This document shows, one piece after another, positions 10,531 through 36,621 of a DNA stretch of 44,977 bases (position 1 is its first letter; each line of letters begins with the position of its first letter). The notes below the pieces were generated by a model that searched no databases, was not told the DNA's origin, and saw only the letters and a list, made by a program, of their open reading frames with translations. This DNA comes from Frigoriflavimonas asaccharolytica (GTDB lineage Bacteria; Bacteroidota; Bacteroidia; Flavobacteriales; Weeksellaceae): assembly GCF_013294015.1 (NCBI RefSeq), contig NZ_JABSNO010000004.1, positions 2,394-47,370 of the forward strand, written 5' to 3'. Made by a program: the position numbers and the translations under genes.

Positions 10531-10667
10531 TATTTAACCACAAAAGTAATAAAAGCATGAGCTTAAACAATTCGTAATAAAGATAAAATAATATGAAAAT
10601 TTCTTAAATTATCCTTATTGAATTGAAATCATTTTTCTTCAACTTATAATTCTTTTGTGGTTATATT
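10531..10667. repeat. MITE-like element with 12-bp terminal inverted repeats
   Basis: A 129-bp AT-rich segment is bounded by perfect inverted repeats TAACCACAAAAG (10535-10546) and CTTTTGTGGTTA (10652-10663). It is flanked on both sides by TATT (10531-10534 and 10664-10667), a possible 4-bp target duplication. The interior encodes nothing. A promoter for the SRPBCC gene appears to lie in its left end. The flanks are low-complexity, so the duplication could be chance. Confidence 0.5.
10541..10570 (-). promoter_or_regulatory. Promoter of the SRPBCC gene
   Basis: TTG (10568-10570) and TACTTTTG (10541-10548) on the minus strand, with a 19-base spacer, fit the Bacteroidota consensus. The -7 box overlaps the left inverted repeat of the MITE-like element. 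Confidence 0.6.
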
Positions 10668-10682
10668 TTAATTAAACTTGCC

Positions 10683-11357
10683 TTAAATTTTTAATAACAA
10701 ATTCGGATCTGGGCAATTTTCCTTATAAAATTCCAATTCCTTTTGGCTGCAAACTCCGGGATAATCGCCTTTTTTGTTTTGAATATCTTTAATAATTTGA
10801 AAATGCAAATGCGGTGCATAATCTCCATTGATGGGCGGTTTTCCCAATTCTGCAATTTTTTCTCCTTTCTTCACCACTTGACCTTCCGATTTTCCATCTA
10901 AACTTTCCAAACTTAAATGACCGTACAAAGTGCAAAAAGTACAACCATCAATTTCATGTTCGATAATAATTGTTGGTCCATAATCTCCATGTGCTGTATT
11001 GTCTTGAAAACTATGAATTTTGCCATCTAAAGCACTCAAAACCGAAGTTCCCGCTTTTATCCAAAGATCTAAACCGATGTGAATATTTCTTTCATCAGTT
11101 ACATTATCTTTAAAATTTTCGCTTCTTCTGTAGAGGTTTCTAACTTCTAAATAACCACCGAAAGCGACTTTTGCCTTATTTTCTGAAAGATGATTTTCTA
11201 CAAACTCCTCGAAAACTTCTGCATCCGTAACATCCAAATCCATTTTATCTGTATTTTTGGCGGAAAGATCTATTGCGACGTAATTTTTGTAATCGATGGT
11301 TGAATCGATTACTTTGATATTGGCTTGGGTTTGGAGGATTTCTGGAAAATTTATCAT
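10683..11357 (-). CDS. M23-family peptidase (LytM-like), no signal peptide
   Basis: 224 residues. The M23 domain lies at about residues 90-205 with all expected zinc and catalytic residues: HxxxD in NIHIGLDLW, then YGHLS, and HLHF. Active M23 enzymes cut peptide crosslinks of peptidoglycan or glycyl bonds. The about 90-residue N-terminal part is not recognised. No signal peptide or membrane helix is present, so the route to the periplasm, or a cytoplasmic role, is unclear. It ends before the MITE-like element and is preceded by another minus-strand gene 46 bases away. Confidence 0.88.
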   Translation of the reverse strand: MINFPEILQTQANIKVIDSTIDYKNYVAIDLSAKNTDKMDLDVTDAEVFEEFVENHLSENKAKVAFGGYLEVRNLYRRSENFKDNVTDERNIHIGLDLWIKAGTSVLSALDGKIHSFQDNTAHGDYGPTIIIEHEIDGCTFCTLYGHLSLESLDGKSEGQVVKKGEKIAELGKPPINGDYAPHLHFQIIKDIQNKKGDYPGVCSQKELEFYKENCPDPNLLLKI

Positions 11358-11403
11358 TTTTTGAATTATCTTTTGTTAATTAACTTAATTTCTAAAAATT
11401 TGA

Positions 11404-11859
11404 TTAAGGTGCACTAATTTGAAAATTAAATAAATAAAGAAGAAACATGGTGATTAAATTATTATCAAAATTATTTTCTACTCTAACTGTAAAATTATTT
11501 GTGCCGAAAAATTTTTGTTTGTAATTTATCGTTAATTGTAATTCGTCATCTTTGTACAAAATATGTTTTTGATTCCACCAACCTTTGTATCTTATGGTAA
11601 AGAACTCTGTATTCTTACCAAAATAAAATAATCTATTTTTTTCAGTATCAATTTTCAATATTATATTTTCATTTAAATCTATCAAACTTTTATCATACCA
11701 CAGAAATCCGCTATGTTTTATTCTGTACATTCTATCATCAAAATAAATTTTGTCGTTAAGTCCATTAATAAAACTAAATAACAATTCTCCGATAACATTC
11801 TTTTCTTGGTCTAACAATTTAAGTGAACTGTTAGAGTCTTTTGTTGTGAAAATTTTCAT
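11404..11859 (-). CDS. Hypothetical beta-rich protein with hydrophobic C-terminus
   Basis: 151 residues. Alternating polar and aromatic stretches (KIYFDDRMYRIKHSGF, NRLFYFGKNTEFFTIRYKGWW) suggest a beta-sandwich or barrel. A short hydrophobic segment at the C-terminus (NNLITMFLLYLFNFQIS) could anchor it in the membrane. The pattern of short strands around Gly and Trp loosely recalls tubby/LURP-like folds, but no family is recognised with confidence. It has no signal peptide. It may share a transcript with the downstream M23 peptidase gene, 46 bases away. Confidence 0.65.
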   Translation of the reverse strand: MKIFTTKDSNSSLKLLDQEKNVIGELLFSFINGLNDKIYFDDRMYRIKHSGFLWYDKSLIDLNENIILKIDTEKNRLFYFGKNTEFFTIRYKGWWNQKHILYKDDELQLTINYKQKFFGTNNFTVRVENNFDNNLITMFLLYLFNFQISAP

Positions 11860-11934
11860 TTATTTGATATTAATACAAATTGGAATTTTTTTAAATTTAG
11901 AAAATTAAATATTCTAAAAAAAATCATTCTTTAA

Positions 11935-12112
11935 CAGCGAATCTCTTGCAACCCGACTTGAGTGGAAATCCTTTTTATTGGTGGCTGAGCTTGTCGAAGC
12001 CAGCAATAAAAAGATTGATTCATAATTTTATTATTTTTATTTAAATCATCGAAACTCGTTCCTCGTTTTGGGAACAGAAGGTCTCGTCTTTAAGGACGAG
12101 ACTGCCCAAATA
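11935..12112 (+). repeat. Dispersed repeat element, copy B (long form)
   Basis: It shares ends with copies A and C: GCAACCCGACTTGAGTGG (from 11949) at the left and GGGAACAGAAGG...GCCCAAATAA at the right. The middle is longer and holds two hairpins. One has 15-bp arms (11972-11986 and 11998-12012) around GGCTGAGCTTGTCGAAGCC. The other is a perfect GTCTCGTC/GACGAGAC at 12081-12102. The element fills most of the 308-bp spacer between hutU and the gene ending upstream. Confidence 0.75.
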
Positions 12113-12114
12113 AA

Positions 12115-12167
12115 ACTACCCCGTCAAAAATTCTCTGAATTTTCGCCACCCCTTCAAAGAAGGGGAA
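12115..12167. repeat. Double-hairpin repeat abutting the hutU stop; may act as terminator
   Basis: Two short hairpins in a row: AAAATTC-TCT-GAATTTT and the perfect CCCCTTC-AAA-GAAGGGG (12149-12165). The second ends two bases from the hutU stop codon. Flanking ACCCCGTC and GCCACCCC make it look like a dispersed palindromic unit rather than an ordinary terminator. Minus-strand transcripts from hutU would form the CCCCTTC hairpin immediately after translation ends. Confidence 0.65.
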
Positions 12168-14153
12168 TTAAAACAAGTCCTCATCTACAAAATTCGGCAG
12201 CGTCACTTTCAAATTCGGTTCTGCTTCCATCGCTCTTTTTATGGCGAAAACTGCGCCTTCGTTTCTTGCCCAAGATCGGCGGGAAATTCCATTGTTTACA
12301 TCCCAAAAAAGCATATTTTTCAATTTTCGTTCTGCTTCTGCGCTTCCATCAAGCAACATTCCGAAACCACCATTAATGACTTCTCCCCAACCAACGCCGC
12401 CTCCATTGTGTATAGAAACCCAAGTTGCACCACGAAAACTGTCGCCAATTACGTTCTGAATCGCCATATCTGCAGTAAATCTGGAACCGTCATAAATATT
12501 AGAAGTTTCGCGATACGGGGAATCTGTCCCAGAAACATCATGATGATCTCGACCTAAAACTACGGCTCCAATTTCTCCATTTTTAATCGCATTATTGAAG
12601 GCTTCCGCAATTTTCATGCGACCTTCTGCATCGGCATATAAAATTCTGGCTTGCGAACCTACGACCAAATTATTCTCTTGCGCCCCTTTTATCCAAGTGA
12701 TATTGTCTTGCATTTGCTGCTGAATTTCCTTCGGCGAATTTTTCATTAATTCTTCTAAAACTTTGCAAGCAATTTCATCGGTTTTTTGTAAATCTTCTGG
12801 TTTTCCACTGGCACAAACCCAACGAAACGGCCCAAAACCATAATCAAAACACATTGGTCCCATAATATCTTGCACATAACTTGGAAACTTAAATTCTCGT
12901 CCCAAACTTGGATTTTCTGCCATCACATCTGCTCCTGCTCTACTTGCTTCGAGTAAAAATGCGTTTCCATAATCGAAAAAATAAGTGCCTTTTTCTGTAT
13001 GTTTATTGATGGCTTTTGCGTGACGACGAAGTGTTTCTTGTATTTTTTCTTTAAATAATTCAGGATTTTCAGCCATCATTTTATTGGCTTCTTCAAATGA
13101 AATTCCGACCGGATAATATCCTCCTGCCCAAGGATTATGAAGCGAAGTCTGATCGGAACCAATGTCTACATGCAGATTTTCGGCATCAAATTTTTCCCAA
13201 ACATCCACGATATTTCCGAGATAAGCCAAGGAAATAGTTTCTTTATTTTCTTGTGCTTTCTGAACTCTTTCTACTAATTCATCTAAATTTTCATGAATTT
13301 CGTCAATCCATTTTTGTTCATGGCGGATTTTGGTAATTTTTGCATTTACATCTGCGCAAATCGTGATGCAACCTGCAATATTACCGGCTTTTGGTTGCGC
13401 TCCAGACATTCCACCTAAACCTGAAGTGACGAAAATTCCGCCTTTTGGTTCTTTTTTAATTTTTCTAAATGCATTTAAAACCGTAATTGTCGTTCCATGC
13501 ACAATTCCTTGTGGACCAATGTACATATAACTTCCCGCCGTCATTTGTCCGTATTGCGAAACTCCCAAAGCGTTCATTTTTTCCCAATCGTCTGGTTTAG
13601 AATAGTTTGGAATTACCATTCCATTCGTAACCACAACTCTTGGCGCATCTTTACTGCTCGGAAATAATCCCATTGGATGTCCAGAATACATGGTTAATGT
13701 TTGTTCGTCCGTCATTTCCGACAAATATTTCATCGTCAAAAGATATTGCGCCCAATTTTGAAAAACCGCCCCATTTCCACCGTAAGTAATCAATTCGTGT
13801 GGATGTTGAGCAACGGCATAATCCAAATTGTTTTGAATCATCAACATAATCGATTTTGCTTGCTCCGATTTTCCGGGATATTCAGAAATTGACCGCGCTT
13901 TCATTTCATAATCTGGACGAAAACGATACATATAAATTCTACCAAAATCTTCTAATTCTTGTCTAAATTCTGGCAATAATTCTGCATGAAATTTAGGTTC
14001 GAAATAGCGCAAAGCATTTTTCAGCGCGAGTTTTTTCTCTTCTTCTGTAAGAATTTCTTTCCGTTTTGGTGCGTGATTGATTTCGGGTTCGTATATTTTA
14101 ATTTCAGGAAGTTCGGATGGGATTCCTTGTTGTATTTGTTCTTGGAAAGTCAT
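12168..14153 (-). CDS. hutU: Urocanate hydratase
   Basis: Converts urocanate to imidazolone propionate, the second step of histidine degradation, with tightly bound NAD+. 661 residues is the long form seen in Bacteroidota and eukaryotes, against about 555 in Pseudomonas. Family segments are clear: ITYGGNGAVFQNWAQY, YIGPQGIVHGTT, the NAD-binding SGLGGMSGAQPKA, the conserved Cys in FGPFRWVCASG, and LGRDHHDVSGTDSPYRETS near the C-terminus. No hutH, hutI or hutG is within the window, so the pathway genes are dispersed. The ATG at 14153 gives the expected N-terminal extension (FQEQIQQGIPSELPEIK). Confidence 0.97.
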   Translation of the reverse strand: MTFQEQIQQGIPSELPEIKIYEPEINHAPKRKEILTEEEKKLALKNALRYFEPKFHAELLPEFRQELEDFGRIYMYRFRPDYEMKARSISEYPGKSEQAKSIMLMIQNNLDYAVAQHPHELITYGGNGAVFQNWAQYLLTMKYLSEMTDEQTLTMYSGHPMGLFPSSKDAPRVVVTNGMVIPNYSKPDDWEKMNALGVSQYGQMTAGSYMYIGPQGIVHGTTITVLNAFRKIKKEPKGGIFVTSGLGGMSGAQPKAGNIAGCITICADVNAKITKIRHEQKWIDEIHENLDELVERVQKAQENKETISLAYLGNIVDVWEKFDAENLHVDIGSDQTSLHNPWAGGYYPVGISFEEANKMMAENPELFKEKIQETLRRHAKAINKHTEKGTYFFDYGNAFLLEASRAGADVMAENPSLGREFKFPSYVQDIMGPMCFDYGFGPFRWVCASGKPEDLQKTDEIACKVLEELMKNSPKEIQQQMQDNITWIKGAQENNLVVGSQARILYADAEGRMKIAEAFNNAIKNGEIGAVVLGRDHHDVSGTDSPYRETSNIYDGSRFTADMAIQNVIGDSFRGATWVSIHNGGGVGWGEVINGGFGMLLDGSAEAERKLKNMLFWDVNNGISRRSWARNEGAVFAIKRAMEAEPNLKVTLPNFVDEDLF

Positions 14154-29920: not shown

Positions 29921-30751
29921 ATGTTTCCAAGATTCACTTTTTATTTTTTGTTCTTATTTGTATCATCACTATACTTTGCTCAAGATTTAACAATCCAATA
30001 TGAGTATAGTAAACGTGAATTTACAGATTCTACAAATATTATCTCACAACGCTCATATTTAAAAATTGGAAAAGAAAGTTCCTTGTTCTTTAGCGAGGCA
30101 GCCTATGTATCAGATTCTATAATGACAGAAAATGAAAAAAATGGAGAAAAAATAAATTTTAAAAATTTACCTAATGATTTGATCGAACTTTTTGTAAGAA
30201 AAAAAATAAAAAGTAAAACTTTAGATTGCTTCTCATTTGAATTTATTGGGCATCAATATGTGTATAAAGAAAGTCCAAATTTTAAATGGAAAGTAACTAG
30301 TACGACTAAAAATATTCTAGGTAAAAAAGTAATCCTTGCAAAAACGTCATACGCTGGACGAGATTATGAAGCATATTTTGCACCAGAGATACCTATACAA
30401 GATGGTCCGTACAAATTTTTTGGCTTACCCGGCTTAATTTTGGAAATTTATGATACAAAATATAATCATCATTTTTTAGCAATTGGAATTTCTACCACTT
30501 CTAAAATTGATGTAAATCACATCTTAGAAAAAGAAAAGTTTTTAGAAATAAGCAAACCTAAATATCTTAAATTAAAGGAAGATATTCAACAAGCGCCATT
30601 AAATGAGATGAAAACAATCATGAGCCAAGCAAATTTAACAGAAAGACAAGACGCTAATGGAAACATGGTAAATATTCCAAATTTAATTAAAAATATGGAA
30701 ACAAAAATGATCAAAGAATTTGAACGTCAAAACGTAATCGAAAAAAATTAA
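29921..30751 (+). CDS. GLPGLI-family secreted protein
   Basis: 276 residues with a signal peptide (FPRFTFYFLFLFVSSLYFAQ). The defining family motif is present in the middle: GPYKFFGLPGLILEIYD (about residues 164-180). Preceding segments (SKRE... LKIGKESSLFFSEAAY; FKWKVTSTTKNILGKKVILA) match the usual layout of this Bacteroidota-specific family, whose function is unknown. It lies ten bases before the next gene, so they probably form an operon. The N-terminal GLPGLI proteins are often next to peptide or receptor genes, but that link is not established here. Confidence 0.9.
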   Translation: MFPRFTFYFLFLFVSSLYFAQDLTIQYEYSKREFTDSTNIISQRSYLKIGKESSLFFSEAAYVSDSIMTENEKNGEKINFKNLPNDLIELFVRKKIKSKTLDCFSFEFIGHQYVYKESPNFKWKVTSTTKNILGKKVILAKTSYAGRDYEAYFAPEIPIQDGPYKFFGLPGLILEIYDTKYNHHFLAIGISTTSKIDVNHILEKEKFLEISKPKYLKLKEDIQQAPLNEMKTIMSQANLTERQDANGNMVNIPNLIKNMETKMIKEFERQNVIEKN

Positions 30752-30761
30752 AATCAATTTT

Positions 30762-31210
30762 ATGAAAAATTTTAAAAAGCTTTTTGTAGCAGTATTACTA
30801 TTTTGCTCCTTTTTTGCGATTGCAAATGATTTAAAAATTACAGATCCAACCTACTATTTGGAATTTAAAAAAAATGAACAACCAGAAAATGTAGAATTTA
30901 AAAGTATTAAACAAAATGAACTGGTGAAAAAGGGGAAGGATATTATTTCAAACTACAATTTGATCAAGAAGACAATTTCATTGGTGCTTCATACGCAAAT
31001 GCAGATTCTACTATAAGTTCTACAACTATTGTTTATTTGGAAGAGATGACCAACTATTTGTTGGATCCAATTAATTCTTCCATATCCGCTGATGTTGTTT
31101 CTGATACGTGCACCCTGAACTGCAATAGAAGCAAGAAATGTTATGATAAAAAAACTAATGAAGAAGCAATAGTTTGTAGTACGACTTGTATACTTGGTTG
31201 CGACGAGTAA
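30762..31210 (+). pseudogene. Secreted Cys-rich protein split by a -1 frameshift
   Basis: The first frame (30762-31016) starts with a signal peptide (MKNFKKLFVAVLLFCSFFAIA). The -1 frame then continues without stop from about 30920 to 31210: GEGYYFKLQFDQEDNFIGASYANAD, ending in a tail with six Cys (DTCTLNCNRSKKCYD..., VCSTTCILGCDE). Joined in AAAAAGGGG (30927-30935) they give one continuous protein of about 148 residues. Either one base is missing (assembly or mutation), or the heptamer-like run supports programmed -1 frameshifting. It is ten bases after the GLPGLI gene and is followed by a strong terminator. Function not recognised. Confidence 0.65.
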
Positions 31211-32633: not shown

Positions 32634-33839
32634 GTGATTAAAATTCATTTGTTGAAACTGGTAGAAGAAAGCGTCAAAAATTTTGATGCAGAAGCATCCG
32701 CTGACCTTATTAAAGCAGAAAAATTTCTAAAAGCACAAGCAAAAATAGAAGACGACATTTCTGTTTATGATGTAGATTCTGTTTTAAATTTATATAAATT
32801 AAATGGCAATTCCTTTGGTGTTTTGCTTAAAGATAACAGCATTCTACAAATTTTAAATGCCGAAACCACAGATCTCAAAAATAAAAGTATTCTTGCAAGC
32901 ATAGAAAATGACGAAATTTTGGAAAATTTCGCGCAAATATTCGAGGGGAATATTAAAGATTTTATCCAAAAAAATATTTTAGTTTTTGGCTGGGGAAATC
33001 TAAAATACCTTGCCGCATACTTCCGGAAAATAATTTCGTCTAGAAATTTAGAATTTTTAAAAACTCAAATTAGTTCAAAAAATCAAACCATTATTTCAAT
33101 ATTTCCATTTCCAGAGAAGTATAAATTTCTTGATAATGAATATAAATATGCGAATGATATTGGTTTTTTTCAACTACAATCTGTGCTAGATCCCTTATTT
33201 TTTGAGGAAGATATTAGAAAAATCAACAATACTTCTATCAATTTTCAAAAAACAGATAAGAGGAACAAATTTTATCTTGGTAGAATAATGATGGCGATCT
33301 ACGGATATAAAACTGATCATAAAAATCTGGCGGATGTGCTGCGCGGAAATTATTCCGTAGGTGCGAATTGGGTAAATTCCTATAAATCTTCAACTTACAA
33401 AGTTTCAGATCTAAAACACGTACGGTATTTTGATTTGCTATCTTATTTCTCTCACCGAAAAACTACGAAAACGAAAGAAATTATTATACTGATAATGATT
33501 TATGGAATGTTAATTTTAACGGTGAGTCCCTTTTTTATTAGAGATTATAAATTTTTAGGTTTAGCACTTCTGGTTGAATTTATTTTATACCTAATATTCA
33601 ATAAAAAACTAAGTAAGAATTTTGAAAAACATTCTAAAACCCAAAACGATTTTTCATTTTATAGAAAATTTAAAAAATTCACGTATAATTTTATCAATTT
33701 AAATTTATTTCTTCTCATTGTAGCAATTTGCATATTAATTATTGTCACCGTTGTTGCTACTTTAATTGCTGTTCCACACAGTATAGTGATTTTTGGTGTG
33801 CTTATTTACAAATTGATACGAAATTTTAATAAAAGATAA
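32634..33839 (+). CDS. Membrane protein of unknown function facing the Hsp70 operon
   Basis: 401 residues from a GTG start, favoured because the ORF begins there and the promoter lies just upstream. The first about 275 residues are soluble, with a helical N-terminus (HLLKLVEESVKNFDAEASADLIKAEKFLKAQAKIE). Four hydrophobic segments follow at about 282-302, 308-324, 355-376 and 378-396. No signal peptide precedes the soluble part, so it should face the cytoplasm with a C-terminal membrane anchor. No family is recognised. It is convergent with the Hsp70-like gene, with a single base between the two stop codons, which suggests a partner gene; this is inference. Confidence 0.7.
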   Translation: MIKIHLLKLVEESVKNFDAEASADLIKAEKFLKAQAKIEDDISVYDVDSVLNLYKLNGNSFGVLLKDNSILQILNAETTDLKNKSILASIENDEILENFAQIFEGNIKDFIQKNILVFGWGNLKYLAAYFRKIISSRNLEFLKTQISSKNQTIISIFPFPEKYKFLDNEYKYANDIGFFQLQSVLDPLFFEEDIRKINNTSINFQKTDKRNKFYLGRIMMAIYGYKTDHKNLADVLRGNYSVGANWVNSYKSSTYKVSDLKHVRYFDLLSYFSHRKTTKTKEIIILIMIYGMLILTVSPFFIRDYKFLGLALLVEFILYLIFNKKLSKNFEKHSKTQNDFSFYRKFKKFTYNFINLNLFLLIVAICILIIVTVVATLIAVPHSIVIFGVLIYKLIRNFNKR

Positions 33840-33840
33840 T

Positions 33841-36327
33841 TTACCGTAAACCGAGATTCCCATCATCTTCTTGAAAAGGATCTTTGGGTTTCTCTATCAG
33901 AAGGCTATACATTTCGCTCACAATATACTTCAATTCCTTGTAAGCTTTATTTTCCAAAGCTTTGTCGCCATTTTCTATTAATCTGTTCAGTTGGTGTTGA
34001 TCTTTATATTCTTGTGGATTTCTACTTTTATAAGAAAAATATAACCCGATATAAGCCTCGTCTTTTTTGTAATAAATGCTTAAATATAACTTAGAAAGTT
34101 CTTTAGTTTTCCTTTTAATAAGCGCTTTTTCATTGGATTCTAAAAAGGCTTTTTCGTCTTTAATTATTTTATTATAAAAATCTATTTGCATTGGCGAAGC
34201 ATCTTCCAAAACCTCATCCATTTCATTTTTTCGCTCTTTATATTCATCTATTTCTGCAATCACATCTCGAAATCTCACCAATTGATCGTAAGATTGCAAA
34301 GCGCGTCTTTTTCTTTCATCTAGTTGAAAAATTTGTTCCGTCGTATCGTTGTCTTCTACTTCTATTAACATAAAACTAACAGCAAAAAGTTCGTCTTTAA
34401 TGGCTTTTAGTTTTGCATAGAATATATAATTATCTTCATCATTTTCTGCGTGATACAGTTCATTATCAATTTCAGAAATAATTTTATTTATATCTGTCTT
34501 AAATTTTTCTTTGTTTAAGATTTTCGCTTGTGGATTGAAGATTTCATTTATTTCGAAATCGATAGAACTGATGTATACAGAAACGCTTAACTCTCGAGAT
34601 TCACTCATTGCAAATTTCAATTCTATATCCATCCCTTTCAGCAGATTTTGGGGTATTTCCTTGCTGTTAATTTCCAAAAAACCAATACTCACATTACTAC
34701 CAGGTAGCGTACCAGCTTTTCCTTCGGTGATATTGATGATGAGTTTATCTTCCTGCGTATTCAGAAAATTTTTGGAAGTGGTTTTATAAATGGTTTTTTT
34801 TAAGGGTAAAATTTCATTTTTGGTAAATATTTTCTCCAAATAAGTATTCCCAAAATTATCATCTACTTCCAAGCAAATATCATTGGGTAAAGGTTGACCA
34901 GAAATGCTATAAACACCATGATTGATGGAAATATCTGCTTTTTCAAAAACTAAATTTTGTTTTCCGTTATAAACAGAAACTGTGAAATCATTTTTTTGTT
35001 TTGGCAAAACTTGTACAAACTCAGAAAATTTTTTTTTAAAGGAAATCAAACCGGTATCAAAACCACCATCTTTCCGGATGATTCTATAAAACCCTTCAAA
35101 GTTTTCGGCAGAAATACCCATCAAAAGTTCTTCTTCATCTTGCGTATTTGCCTCGTTGATAATTTGAAATTCTGTAGAATTTTTCTTTTGGGTAAATGTA
35201 TTTTCTACACTGGTATCCGTAGAAATTTCTTTTACTTTTGTACCTGCAAAATAAGCAGCACCCACCATTATAGAAGTTATAGGATCTATGGAATTATCAA
35301 TCTTAATATGAAAAACGGCCTGCAGTCTTTCTCTGATGAAGGGAATATACGTTGTACCACCGACTAAAATGATTCGTTCTACATCTTGCGCAGTTTTAGA
35401 ATTATCTTCCAATAATTTTTCTATTAAAACTACAGATTCTTCTATTTTTGCAGAAATCACTTGGTTGAAATCGTTTCTGCTAATGTTGAATTCTACAAAA
35501 TAGTCGCCACCATTTAATTCTATTTCAGCAATTGCATTTTCTTTTATAGAAAGTTCTTTTTTAATTTCTTCGGCAATGTAGAGCAACTCAAAATATAATT
35601 TAGACCATGCAGCATCTTGCTTTTGCAACATTTTTTTGTAAAGATTTTCCTCTTTCAAAACTTTTTCAATTTCTGGAACTAGCAATTTTTCGATTACCAA
35701 ATGATCCAAATCTACACCTCCCAGAAAATTGTTTCCTTCATGATCAATCACTTTCAATTCACGTTCATCAATCTTCACTAAAGCAACATCAAAAGTTCCG
35801 CCTCCAAAATCATAAACCAACCAAAATTTTTCTTCCGAATGCTCAATATTCTGAAAATTTGCATATGCCAAACATGCTGCAATTGGCTCTTGCAGCAGTA
35901 CAACTTGCTGAAAACCTGCCAATTTACCAGCTTGTTGTGTTGCATTGGATTGTATCGTATCAAAAGAGGCGGGAATTGTGATAACTGCTGCCGTTGGTTT
36001 TTCTTCTGGTAAAAAGCTAAGCAGCTCTTTTAAAATCATCGAAGATAATTCTACAGGAGTTTTAGAATCTTCAGAATCAGAAATTTTATACGTAAAATCT
36101 GTTCCCATTTTTCTTTTAAAAGAAGAAAAAACATGCGGATTGCCCGTTTTCAAAAGTTCTCTTGCCTTTTCGCCAATCACAATTCTACTTTTGCGAAAAG
36201 CAACTACAGAAGGCAAAGTTTCGCTAAAGCCAACTGGATTTTTGTAGATGATTGCTTTTCCGTCTTGAAGTTTGCAAATACCAGAGTTGGTAGTACCCAA
36301 ATCTATTCCGTAGTTTATATTTTCCAT
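33841..36327 (-). CDS. Atypical Hsp70-family protein
   Basis: 828 residues, much longer than DnaK (about 635). The ATPase domain (about 1-365) has phosphate-1 GIDLGTTNSGI, phosphate-2 VYDFGGGTFDVAL at about 168-181, and the adenosine motif IILVGGTTYIPF at about 319-330; all key residues look intact. A non-DnaK segment of about 130 residues follows (EEELLMGISAENFEGFYRIIRKDGG...). Next is a recognisable substrate-binding-like beta part (about 510-600, with LPGSNVSIGFLEI), then a long charged helical tail (about 600-820). The small GrpE-like gene is three bases upstream. Probably a specialised chaperone with its own cofactors, not the general DnaK. Confidence 0.9.
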   Translation of the reverse strand: MENINYGIDLGTTNSGICKLQDGKAIIYKNPVGFSETLPSVVAFRKSRIVIGEKARELLKTGNPHVFSSFKRKMGTDFTYKISDSEDSKTPVELSSMILKELLSFLPEEKPTAAVITIPASFDTIQSNATQQAGKLAGFQQVVLLQEPIAACLAYANFQNIEHSEEKFWLVYDFGGGTFDVALVKIDERELKVIDHEGNNFLGGVDLDHLVIEKLLVPEIEKVLKEENLYKKMLQKQDAAWSKLYFELLYIAEEIKKELSIKENAIAEIELNGGDYFVEFNISRNDFNQVISAKIEESVVLIEKLLEDNSKTAQDVERIILVGGTTYIPFIRERLQAVFHIKIDNSIDPITSIMVGAAYFAGTKVKEISTDTSVENTFTQKKNSTEFQIINEANTQDEEELLMGISAENFEGFYRIIRKDGGFDTGLISFKKKFSEFVQVLPKQKNDFTVSVYNGKQNLVFEKADISINHGVYSISGQPLPNDICLEVDDNFGNTYLEKIFTKNEILPLKKTIYKTTSKNFLNTQEDKLIINITEGKAGTLPGSNVSIGFLEINSKEIPQNLLKGMDIELKFAMSESRELSVSVYISSIDFEINEIFNPQAKILNKEKFKTDINKIISEIDNELYHAENDEDNYIFYAKLKAIKDELFAVSFMLIEVEDNDTTEQIFQLDERKRRALQSYDQLVRFRDVIAEIDEYKERKNEMDEVLEDASPMQIDFYNKIIKDEKAFLESNEKALIKRKTKELSKLYLSIYYKKDEAYIGLYFSYKSRNPQEYKDQHQLNRLIENGDKALENKAYKELKYIVSEMYSLLIEKPKDPFQEDDGNLGLR

Positions 36328-36330
36328 CTT

Positions 36331-36621
36331 CTATTCTGCTATTACAATTCCTTTTTGCATCAAAATAAAATCTGTTCCATCTTTTTGAAAAATGGCAGGT
36401 TTTAAAACTTTCACAATTTTAGGATTTTTAGAATCCCCAACTAAATTCACCTCCAGAGAAGTATCTCTTTCATCATAATATTTACCTAATGGATTGGAAA
36501 TAAGAAAACCTAAATCTTCAAACTCTTGCTGAATTCTTTCTAAATTCCTTTCGAATAAAGATATATTTTGTTCTAAAGCTTTTTTTTGAATTTCAAAAAC
36601 CTGATTGATAATTTGTAGCAT
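36331..36621 (-). CDS. Small GrpE-like cofactor of the atypical Hsp70
   Basis: 96 residues. The N-terminal half is a coiled coil (QVFEIQKKALEQNISLFERNLERIQQEFEDLG), and the C-terminal half is a small beta part (KIVKVLKPAIFQKDGTDFILMQKGIVIAE) that resembles the V..VL.PA.....G.... beta domain of GrpE. GrpE itself is about 180 residues, so this is a minimal version if it is one. It is the first gene of the operon with the Hsp70-like gene, separated by three bases. A role as nucleotide-exchange factor is inferred from fold pattern and position. Confidence 0.62.
   Translation of the reverse strand: MLQIINQVFEIQKKALEQNISLFERNLERIQQEFEDLGFLISNPLGKYYDERDTSLEVNLVGDSKNPKIVKVLKPAIFQKDGTDFILMQKGIVIAE

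Follow-up and report, generated by a model that had tools for sequence, protein, structure and literature searches.

An atypical Hsp70 linked to a predicted miniature GrpE-fold protein and a membrane protein in Frigoriflavimonas asaccharolytica: a candidate dedicated Hsp70 machine

The window, by which we mean the whole 44,977-nucleotide stretch of Frigoriflavimonas asaccharolytica DNA that was analysed (contig NZ_JABSNO010000004.1, positions 2,394 to 47,370 of the forward strand), holds three adjacent genes that are the subject of this work. A 96-amino-acid protein, the candidate mini-GrpE (36331 to 36621, minus strand), is followed after 3 nucleotides, stop to start, by an atypical Hsp70 of 828 amino acids (33841 to 36327, minus strand). 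A 401-amino-acid membrane protein (32634 to 33839, plus strand) is convergent with the Hsp70 gene, the two stop codons lying 1 nucleotide apart in the list of open reading frames (ORFs). The original prediction, made from the letters of the DNA, had described an intact Hsp70 ATPase domain in a protein with its own GrpE-like factor encoded three bases away; what it observed is confirmed here, and its interpretation as a specialised system is supported.

The large protein belongs to the Hsp70 superfamily by its ATPase domain and by the catalytic residues D8, K70, E171, D194 and T199 (DnaK numbering is used for all such positions). Pfam HSP70 covers residues 7-363 alone (2e-56), and the ATPase domain extends over approximately residues 1-366 (35230 to 36327, minus strand). 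Our residue counts refer to 79 family members longer than 800 amino acids, the window's copy included and five shorter ones left out, and in all 79 the residues D8, T11, N13, K70, R71, E171, D194 and T199 are invariant. An unfamiliar segment of about 130 residues had been predicted next, and one is present, at roughly residues 366-480, between the ATPase domain and the substrate-domain-like part and free of Pfam matches; most of it (about residues 395-480, 34888 to 35145, minus strand) is traced in alignments by the family motif R-x-DGGFD. It is followed by a diverged beta part resembling a substrate-binding domain (SBD; about residues 481-600, 34528 to 34887, minus strand), and by a charged tail (about residues 601-828, 33844 to 34527, minus strand), described as helical in the original prediction, that occupies the position of DnaK's helical lid when aligned with distant family members. 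Direct profile comparison of the window family's C-terminal half with the DnaK substrate domain gave no match (hhalign 0.3%). The window's Hsp70 family does match seven more distant family Hsp70s (hhalign 99.9%), and these seven match DnaK SBD-beta (hhalign 90%, E-value 1.6e-6), so that the predicted divergent substrate-binding part is supported through a transitive link, which suggests an indirect tie to DnaK only. The NCBIfam HscA model scores the protein at 209.1 bits, below its cut-off of 708.55.

The AlphaFold2 model of the small protein, built from 52 family members, has a predicted local distance difference test score (pLDDT) of 96.3 and consists of helices at residues 2-17 and 24-36, then six strands. 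When this model was compared by VIA-align, the first seven rows were GrpE (Z 9.3-8.6 in rows 1-6 and 5.8 in row 7), and the first row unrelated to GrpE had a Z of 3.0. The best match, 8gb3_E, has a Z of 9.3 and a root-mean-square deviation of 2.6 with 89 of the 96 residues aligned, and the top nine Foldseek rows are likewise all GrpE. The model aligns to GrpE residues from about 92 to 187 of 8gb3_E and begins at the level of residue 92 or so in both 8gb3_E and 1dkg_A; the long N-terminal dimerisation helix of GrpE is therefore missing. The small protein is thus predicted to adopt the GrpE fold in its C-terminal half only, comprising the helical part and the beta wing, and the predicted fold is not one unrelated to GrpE, which would have refuted the original reading. 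Of the two features originally read from the sequence, the GrpE-like beta tail is borne out by the fold, and the coiled coil is not, its place being taken by two short helices. This GrpE kinship is visible in the predicted fold and not by sequence search: the protein has no significant match in Pfam (best 0.094), NCBIfam, PADLOC or PDB (best 0.63), none to Pfam GrpE (PF01025), and only 7% in hhalign against the GrpEs of related genomes. PF01025 has a single match in the own genome, on a different contig.

The association of the two genes was followed through 84 loci, made up of the best 80 of 235 relatives found in a contig scan with the family-specific middle part of the Hsp70, the window, and three others, with three duplicates dropped. 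ORF calling finds the small gene immediately upstream of the Hsp70 gene and in the same orientation at 77 of the 84 loci, with a median coordinate distance of 8, and a six-frame search raises this to 80, including one incomplete copy at the end of a contig. In three of the four misses (L115, L120 and L123) the Hsp70 gene is cut at the contig end; the small protein is present elsewhere in the genomes of L115 and L120 and was not found in that of L123. Among 99 genomes (the own genome and relatives), a full-length Hsp70 of the window type occurs, among the matches listed, in the own genome and in G016, and the small protein occurs in the same two. In a sample of 296 genomes from the phylum, in which the profile scan scored at most three candidates per genome, at least 12 genomes hold Hsp70-clade matches that extend far beyond the ATPase domain. 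Six of these 12, the own genome included, carry the window type, the other five copies being 38-66% identical to it over their length, and the remaining six carry Hsp70s that are 25-33% identical to the window's. The small-protein profile finds exactly the six window-type genomes and none of the other 290. Rather than occurring mostly without the small protein, homologues of the window-type Hsp70 are thus nearly always accompanied by it. A Pseudomonas plasmid and a larger operon type, both described below, likewise place the small protein or a domain like it ahead of the Hsp70. The 80 locus titles are of Bacteroidota except for L085, which is labelled Limnohabitans; the module of this metagenome-assembled genome resembles those of Bacteroidota, with 68% identity to the window's over the query part, and the label is probably a binning error. 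No match to the C-terminal half of the Hsp70 was found in 50,697 phage records, and in viral contigs a pattern for the small protein matched 123 times, with none of the matches confirmed.

The membrane protein had been proposed as the possible co-chaperone or client of the Hsp70. In 76 of the 84 loci the Hsp70 has at least one gene of this family (113 genes in all, by single-linkage blastp) no more than 6 kb away, and the family is present in 67 of the 69 loci with more than 3 kb on both sides of the Hsp70; the next commonest neighbour family is found in 20 of the 84. Given this linkage, the membrane protein belongs to the system as its third component, and the conserved neighbourhood expected across Bacteroidota is found for all three genes; the co-chaperone role is unproven, and the protein may instead be a client or an anchor. 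Its AlphaFold2 model, from 87 members (pLDDT 88.5), begins with a confidently predicted all-helical domain over model residues 1-250, whose ten-residue blocks have pLDDT values of 85-98, at or above 94 in most; four long helices follow. This constant domain, also recognised from its homologue in a plasmid operon discussed below, corresponds to about residues 1-251 in the window (32634 to 33386, plus strand) and is presumably cytosolic. By hydropathy, 82 of the 87 members have membrane segments; the median start of the first segment is residue 264 (range 99-317), and beyond the last segment there are fewer than 40 residues in 43 of the 82 and at least 120 in 35. The model's helices at 3-12, 21-37 and 43-56 have a spacing suggestive of a J-domain, and the hhalign profile match to J-domains is 2.3%, which gives the idea no support. 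HPD or HPE occurs within the first 100 residues of 3 of 111 members, which we take as chance. The 25 (of 42) Pfam families listed for the 87 members include no J-domain family, and the listed fold-search rows, in which residues 1-60 are barely covered, include no J-domain.

The Hsp70 is changed at the site at which J-proteins dock. According to the relevant section of a review (PMC8215388), D35 of the HPD motif contacts R167 and Q378 of DnaK and H33 contacts the linker, and R167, N170, T173 and E217 are named among the residues affecting DnaJ binding or stimulation in parts of two further papers (PMC5240922, PMC4022485). In all 79 members R167 is replaced by V, Y, L, F, A or T, N170 by Q, T173 by I or V, and Q378 by Y or F. 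The same holds for Y145 (to S) and R151 (to S or T), while D148 has become T in 78 members and L in one, and E217 is retained in one of the 79. In the window's protein the former contact site is V143, Q146 and I149, at DnaK positions R167, N170 and T173 (35881 to 35901, minus strand). Eight more distant Hsp70s have R167, N170, T173 and Q378 replaced as well, whereas all four are retained in 26 of 26 DnaKs from related genomes, as well as in DnaK, HscA and HscC of E. coli. The columns of the canonical hydrophobic linker (D393) are gapped or unrelated in the 79 members, the alignment being uncertain beyond the ATPase domain. Since the four contact residues are replaced throughout and the linker was not found, activation through an HPD J-domain is not expected; and because the replacing residues are mostly conserved among themselves, the site appears to be under a new constraint rather than in decay.

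Against the three kinds of prokaryotic Hsp70 that are named in a 2021 review, each discussed there with J-protein partners in the sections concerned (PMC8215388), the window system shows both likenesses and differences. It shares with DnaK-GrpE-DnaJ the catalytic residues of the Hsp70 ATPase domain and a factor of the GrpE fold, but differs in its inserted segment, its diverged substrate part, its replaced J-contact site, the lack of a canonical linker in our alignments, and a GrpE-like factor reduced to the C-terminal half; canonical GrpE and DnaJ are encoded elsewhere in the own genome. HscA-HscB is similar in pairing a dedicated Hsp70 with a dedicated partner, yet HscA retains the J-contact residues, serves iron-sulfur assembly and is believed not to engage GrpE (PMC8215388). 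E. coli HscC offers the nearest working analogue, as its gene is convergent with that of a membrane-anchored partner (hscC/djlC). Its function has been proposed to lie at the plasma membrane, its partners DjlB and DjlC are tail-anchored, and for it, too, an interaction with GrpE is considered absent (PMC8215388). Its J-domain partners carry an HPE motif (PMC13254874, in part). By the features that we tested, the window's protein is not an HscC: HscC retains R167, N170, T173, Q378 and the linker aspartate and is 550-580 residues long (PMC8215388) as opposed to 828, and the window system has a dedicated mini-GrpE and no recognisable J-domain. In a tree of 41 ATPase domains, the window family forms one clade (support 0.47), joined by the distant members (0.16) and by HscC (0.999). 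Rooting on DnaK was manual, HscA and HscC were represented by one sequence each, and we do not use the tree as evidence.

We conclude that the three genes probably, though far from certainly, form a dedicated Hsp70 machine separate from those of DnaK, HscA and HscC, with a private mini-GrpE, a membrane partner and an activation step that does not use HPD. That it acts as a chaperone is suggested by its family. With its normal catalytic set invariant, the Hsp70 would bind and hydrolyse ATP. The 96-amino-acid protein may bind it as a private nucleotide-exchange factor, its short helical part and beta wing opening the nucleotide cleft; the beta wing is the part of GrpE that enters the DnaK cleft (PMC8215388, section 9). 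From linkage and anatomy, the constant helical domain of the membrane protein would hold the Hsp70 at the inner membrane and would probably supply the activation step that J-proteins supply elsewhere, and selection of the client or stimulus would fall to its variable membrane and outer ends. A bolder proposal, to which we give somewhat less than an even chance, is that this is a fourth kind of bacterial Hsp70 machine, with hydrolysis triggered by a membrane-anchored helical domain without HPD at a remade contact site, and with resetting by a cut-down GrpE. If true, it would be a natural Hsp70 cycle that is J-independent or in which the J-protein has been replaced: the clade keeps the motor and a reset factor of the GrpE fold, and has the J-receiving residues replaced in every member examined. 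The three genes thus make it testable whether an Hsp70 cycle runs without an HPD J-domain, and would include a minimal natural GrpE. A literature search of open-licence papers returned no description of the module.

Several observations weigh against this reading. The own genome still holds five J-domain proteins, DnaJ included, and some positions tied to J-binding or allostery remain, with V or I at V218 in 78 of the 79 members and K at K155 in 75. R167 also couples the ATPase and substrate domains, according to the pertinent parts of three papers (PMC5240922, PMC4022485, PMC8215388), so its loss is no proof of J-independence and may reflect altered allostery. DnaK's GrpE signature loop (residues 290-295) is shorter in 67 of the 79, and a normal GrpE-DnaK interface is thus not assured; binding of the small protein to the window's Hsp70 is our inference only, and its Foldseek rows all miss an E-value of 0.001. 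The third protein has no clear PDB match (best Z 7.5, generic helical) and no detected J-domain, and its gene is absent from two of the 69 loci (L085 and L136). Lastly, L155 is a real miss, with the small protein absent from both locus and genome, and the 84 loci include near-identical species, so that the locus counts are not independent events.

One alternative is that the membrane proteins are dedicated clients, folded, inserted or gated by the Hsp70 with no need for a J-like activator. The third genes vary strongly (8-31% identity to the window's copy), and 107 of the 113 copies are on the strand opposite the Hsp70, unlike a fixed operon subunit. In addition, they occur as tandem paralogues of two or three copies at several loci (L065 at 10609-12983, L109, L114 and L138), which suggests several receptors or clients per Hsp70. 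What makes this alternative less likely in our view is that a constant N-terminal domain is joined to a variable membrane part, the pattern that a docking domain would show, and that a homologous domain recurs in a different architecture. A conjugative plasmid of Pseudomonas hygromyciniae carries the full triad as three genes in a row (L223, 5274-10308), annotated as 'hypothetical, hypothetical, Hsp70 family protein'. Its 724-amino-acid ORF has the third-gene domain (E-value 2.1e-11) after a different N-terminal region of about 265 residues, and a 117-amino-acid small protein (E-value 3e-30) and the Hsp70 complete the triad. Among 72,556 plasmids, this is the only one to match the C-terminal half of the Hsp70 (E-value limit 1e-5) and the only one to match the small protein (limit 0.01), which lies directly upstream of the Hsp70.

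A second possibility is that the Hsp70 is no chaperone but a switch powered by ATP that belongs to a conflict or stress-signalling system, as larger operons of the same clade may suggest. In L034, L070, L071, L072 and L077 the Hsp70 gene is preceded by one for a 300-326-amino-acid protein with a small-protein-like end (E-values 7e-8 to 0.005), and this C-terminal domain matches the small protein at 95% in hhalign (E-value 3.1e-8). By eye, the proteins of L034 and L077 have a membrane span and a coiled-coil-like stretch. In four of the five (not L034) the next gene upstream begins with a sequence like 'NPYRVIGL' or 'NPFRVLGL', and these proteins resemble J-domains weakly and lack HPD (hhalign 15.8%, E-value 0.0016). 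DnaK position R167 is E in all five operons, possibly a charge swap matching the lost HPD aspartate. We also compared the window's third protein with the 'NPYRVIGL' proteins and found no support for their equivalence (hhalign 0.7%; best E-value 0.011, outside the N-terminus). Elsewhere, L074 and L075 have free upstream proteins that match the small protein weakly (E-values 0.0026 and 5.7e-6), and the contig of L073 ends just upstream of the Hsp70. The operon of L077 continues with a kinase-AAA+ fusion (Pkinase+AAA), TerB and CpXC proteins, and L071 and L070 adjoin genes that, from their sequences, we take to be a type I restriction subunit and an integrase, respectively. Hsp70, GrpE and DnaJ domains occur in some conflict systems (Kaur et al. 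2020, PMC7159879, in the parts concerned). Among these, the GAP1-N2 systems likewise link an Hsp70 to GrpE in a dedicated neighbourhood, are centred on GTPases, have GrpE and DnaJ domains and are mainly found in actinobacteria and firmicutes (PMC7159879, same parts). Around the window-type loci, by comparison, no neighbour family besides the three components exceeds 20 of 84 (GTPases were not specifically searched for) and the three proteins have no PADLOC match, and we regard the switch as improbable.

It is also conceivable that an ordinary specialised chaperone borrows the general J-proteins, such as DnaJ and CbpA, with the membrane gene as a client or bystander. The own genome would offer DnaJ and four other J-domain proteins, and V218 and K155 are largely retained. 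At L066 (11321-12514), what is presumably a CbpA-like J-protein, with a 96-amino-acid protein that may be CbpM-like, lies divergent beside the module. L066 is the only one of the 84 loci with a canonical J-protein within the flanking sequence retrieved, which on some contigs is short. Together with the replacement of R167, N170, T173 and Q378 in every member and the membrane gene in 67 of 69 loci, this leaves borrowing with a poor chance. The small protein might finally have a GrpE fold without exchange function and serve, for example, as a scaffold or inhibitor of the Hsp70, as its missing long helix, the shortened signature loop and its undetectable sequence similarity to GrpE could indicate, but this is similarly doubtful, because the part retained is the beta wing, which enters the DnaK cleft (PMC8215388, as above), and co-occurrence with the Hsp70 is near-complete.

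Elsewhere in the window, at 29921-31016, two ORFs of 276 and 84 amino acids, which we assume to be GLPGLI-type secreted proteins, bear no relation to the Hsp70 module.

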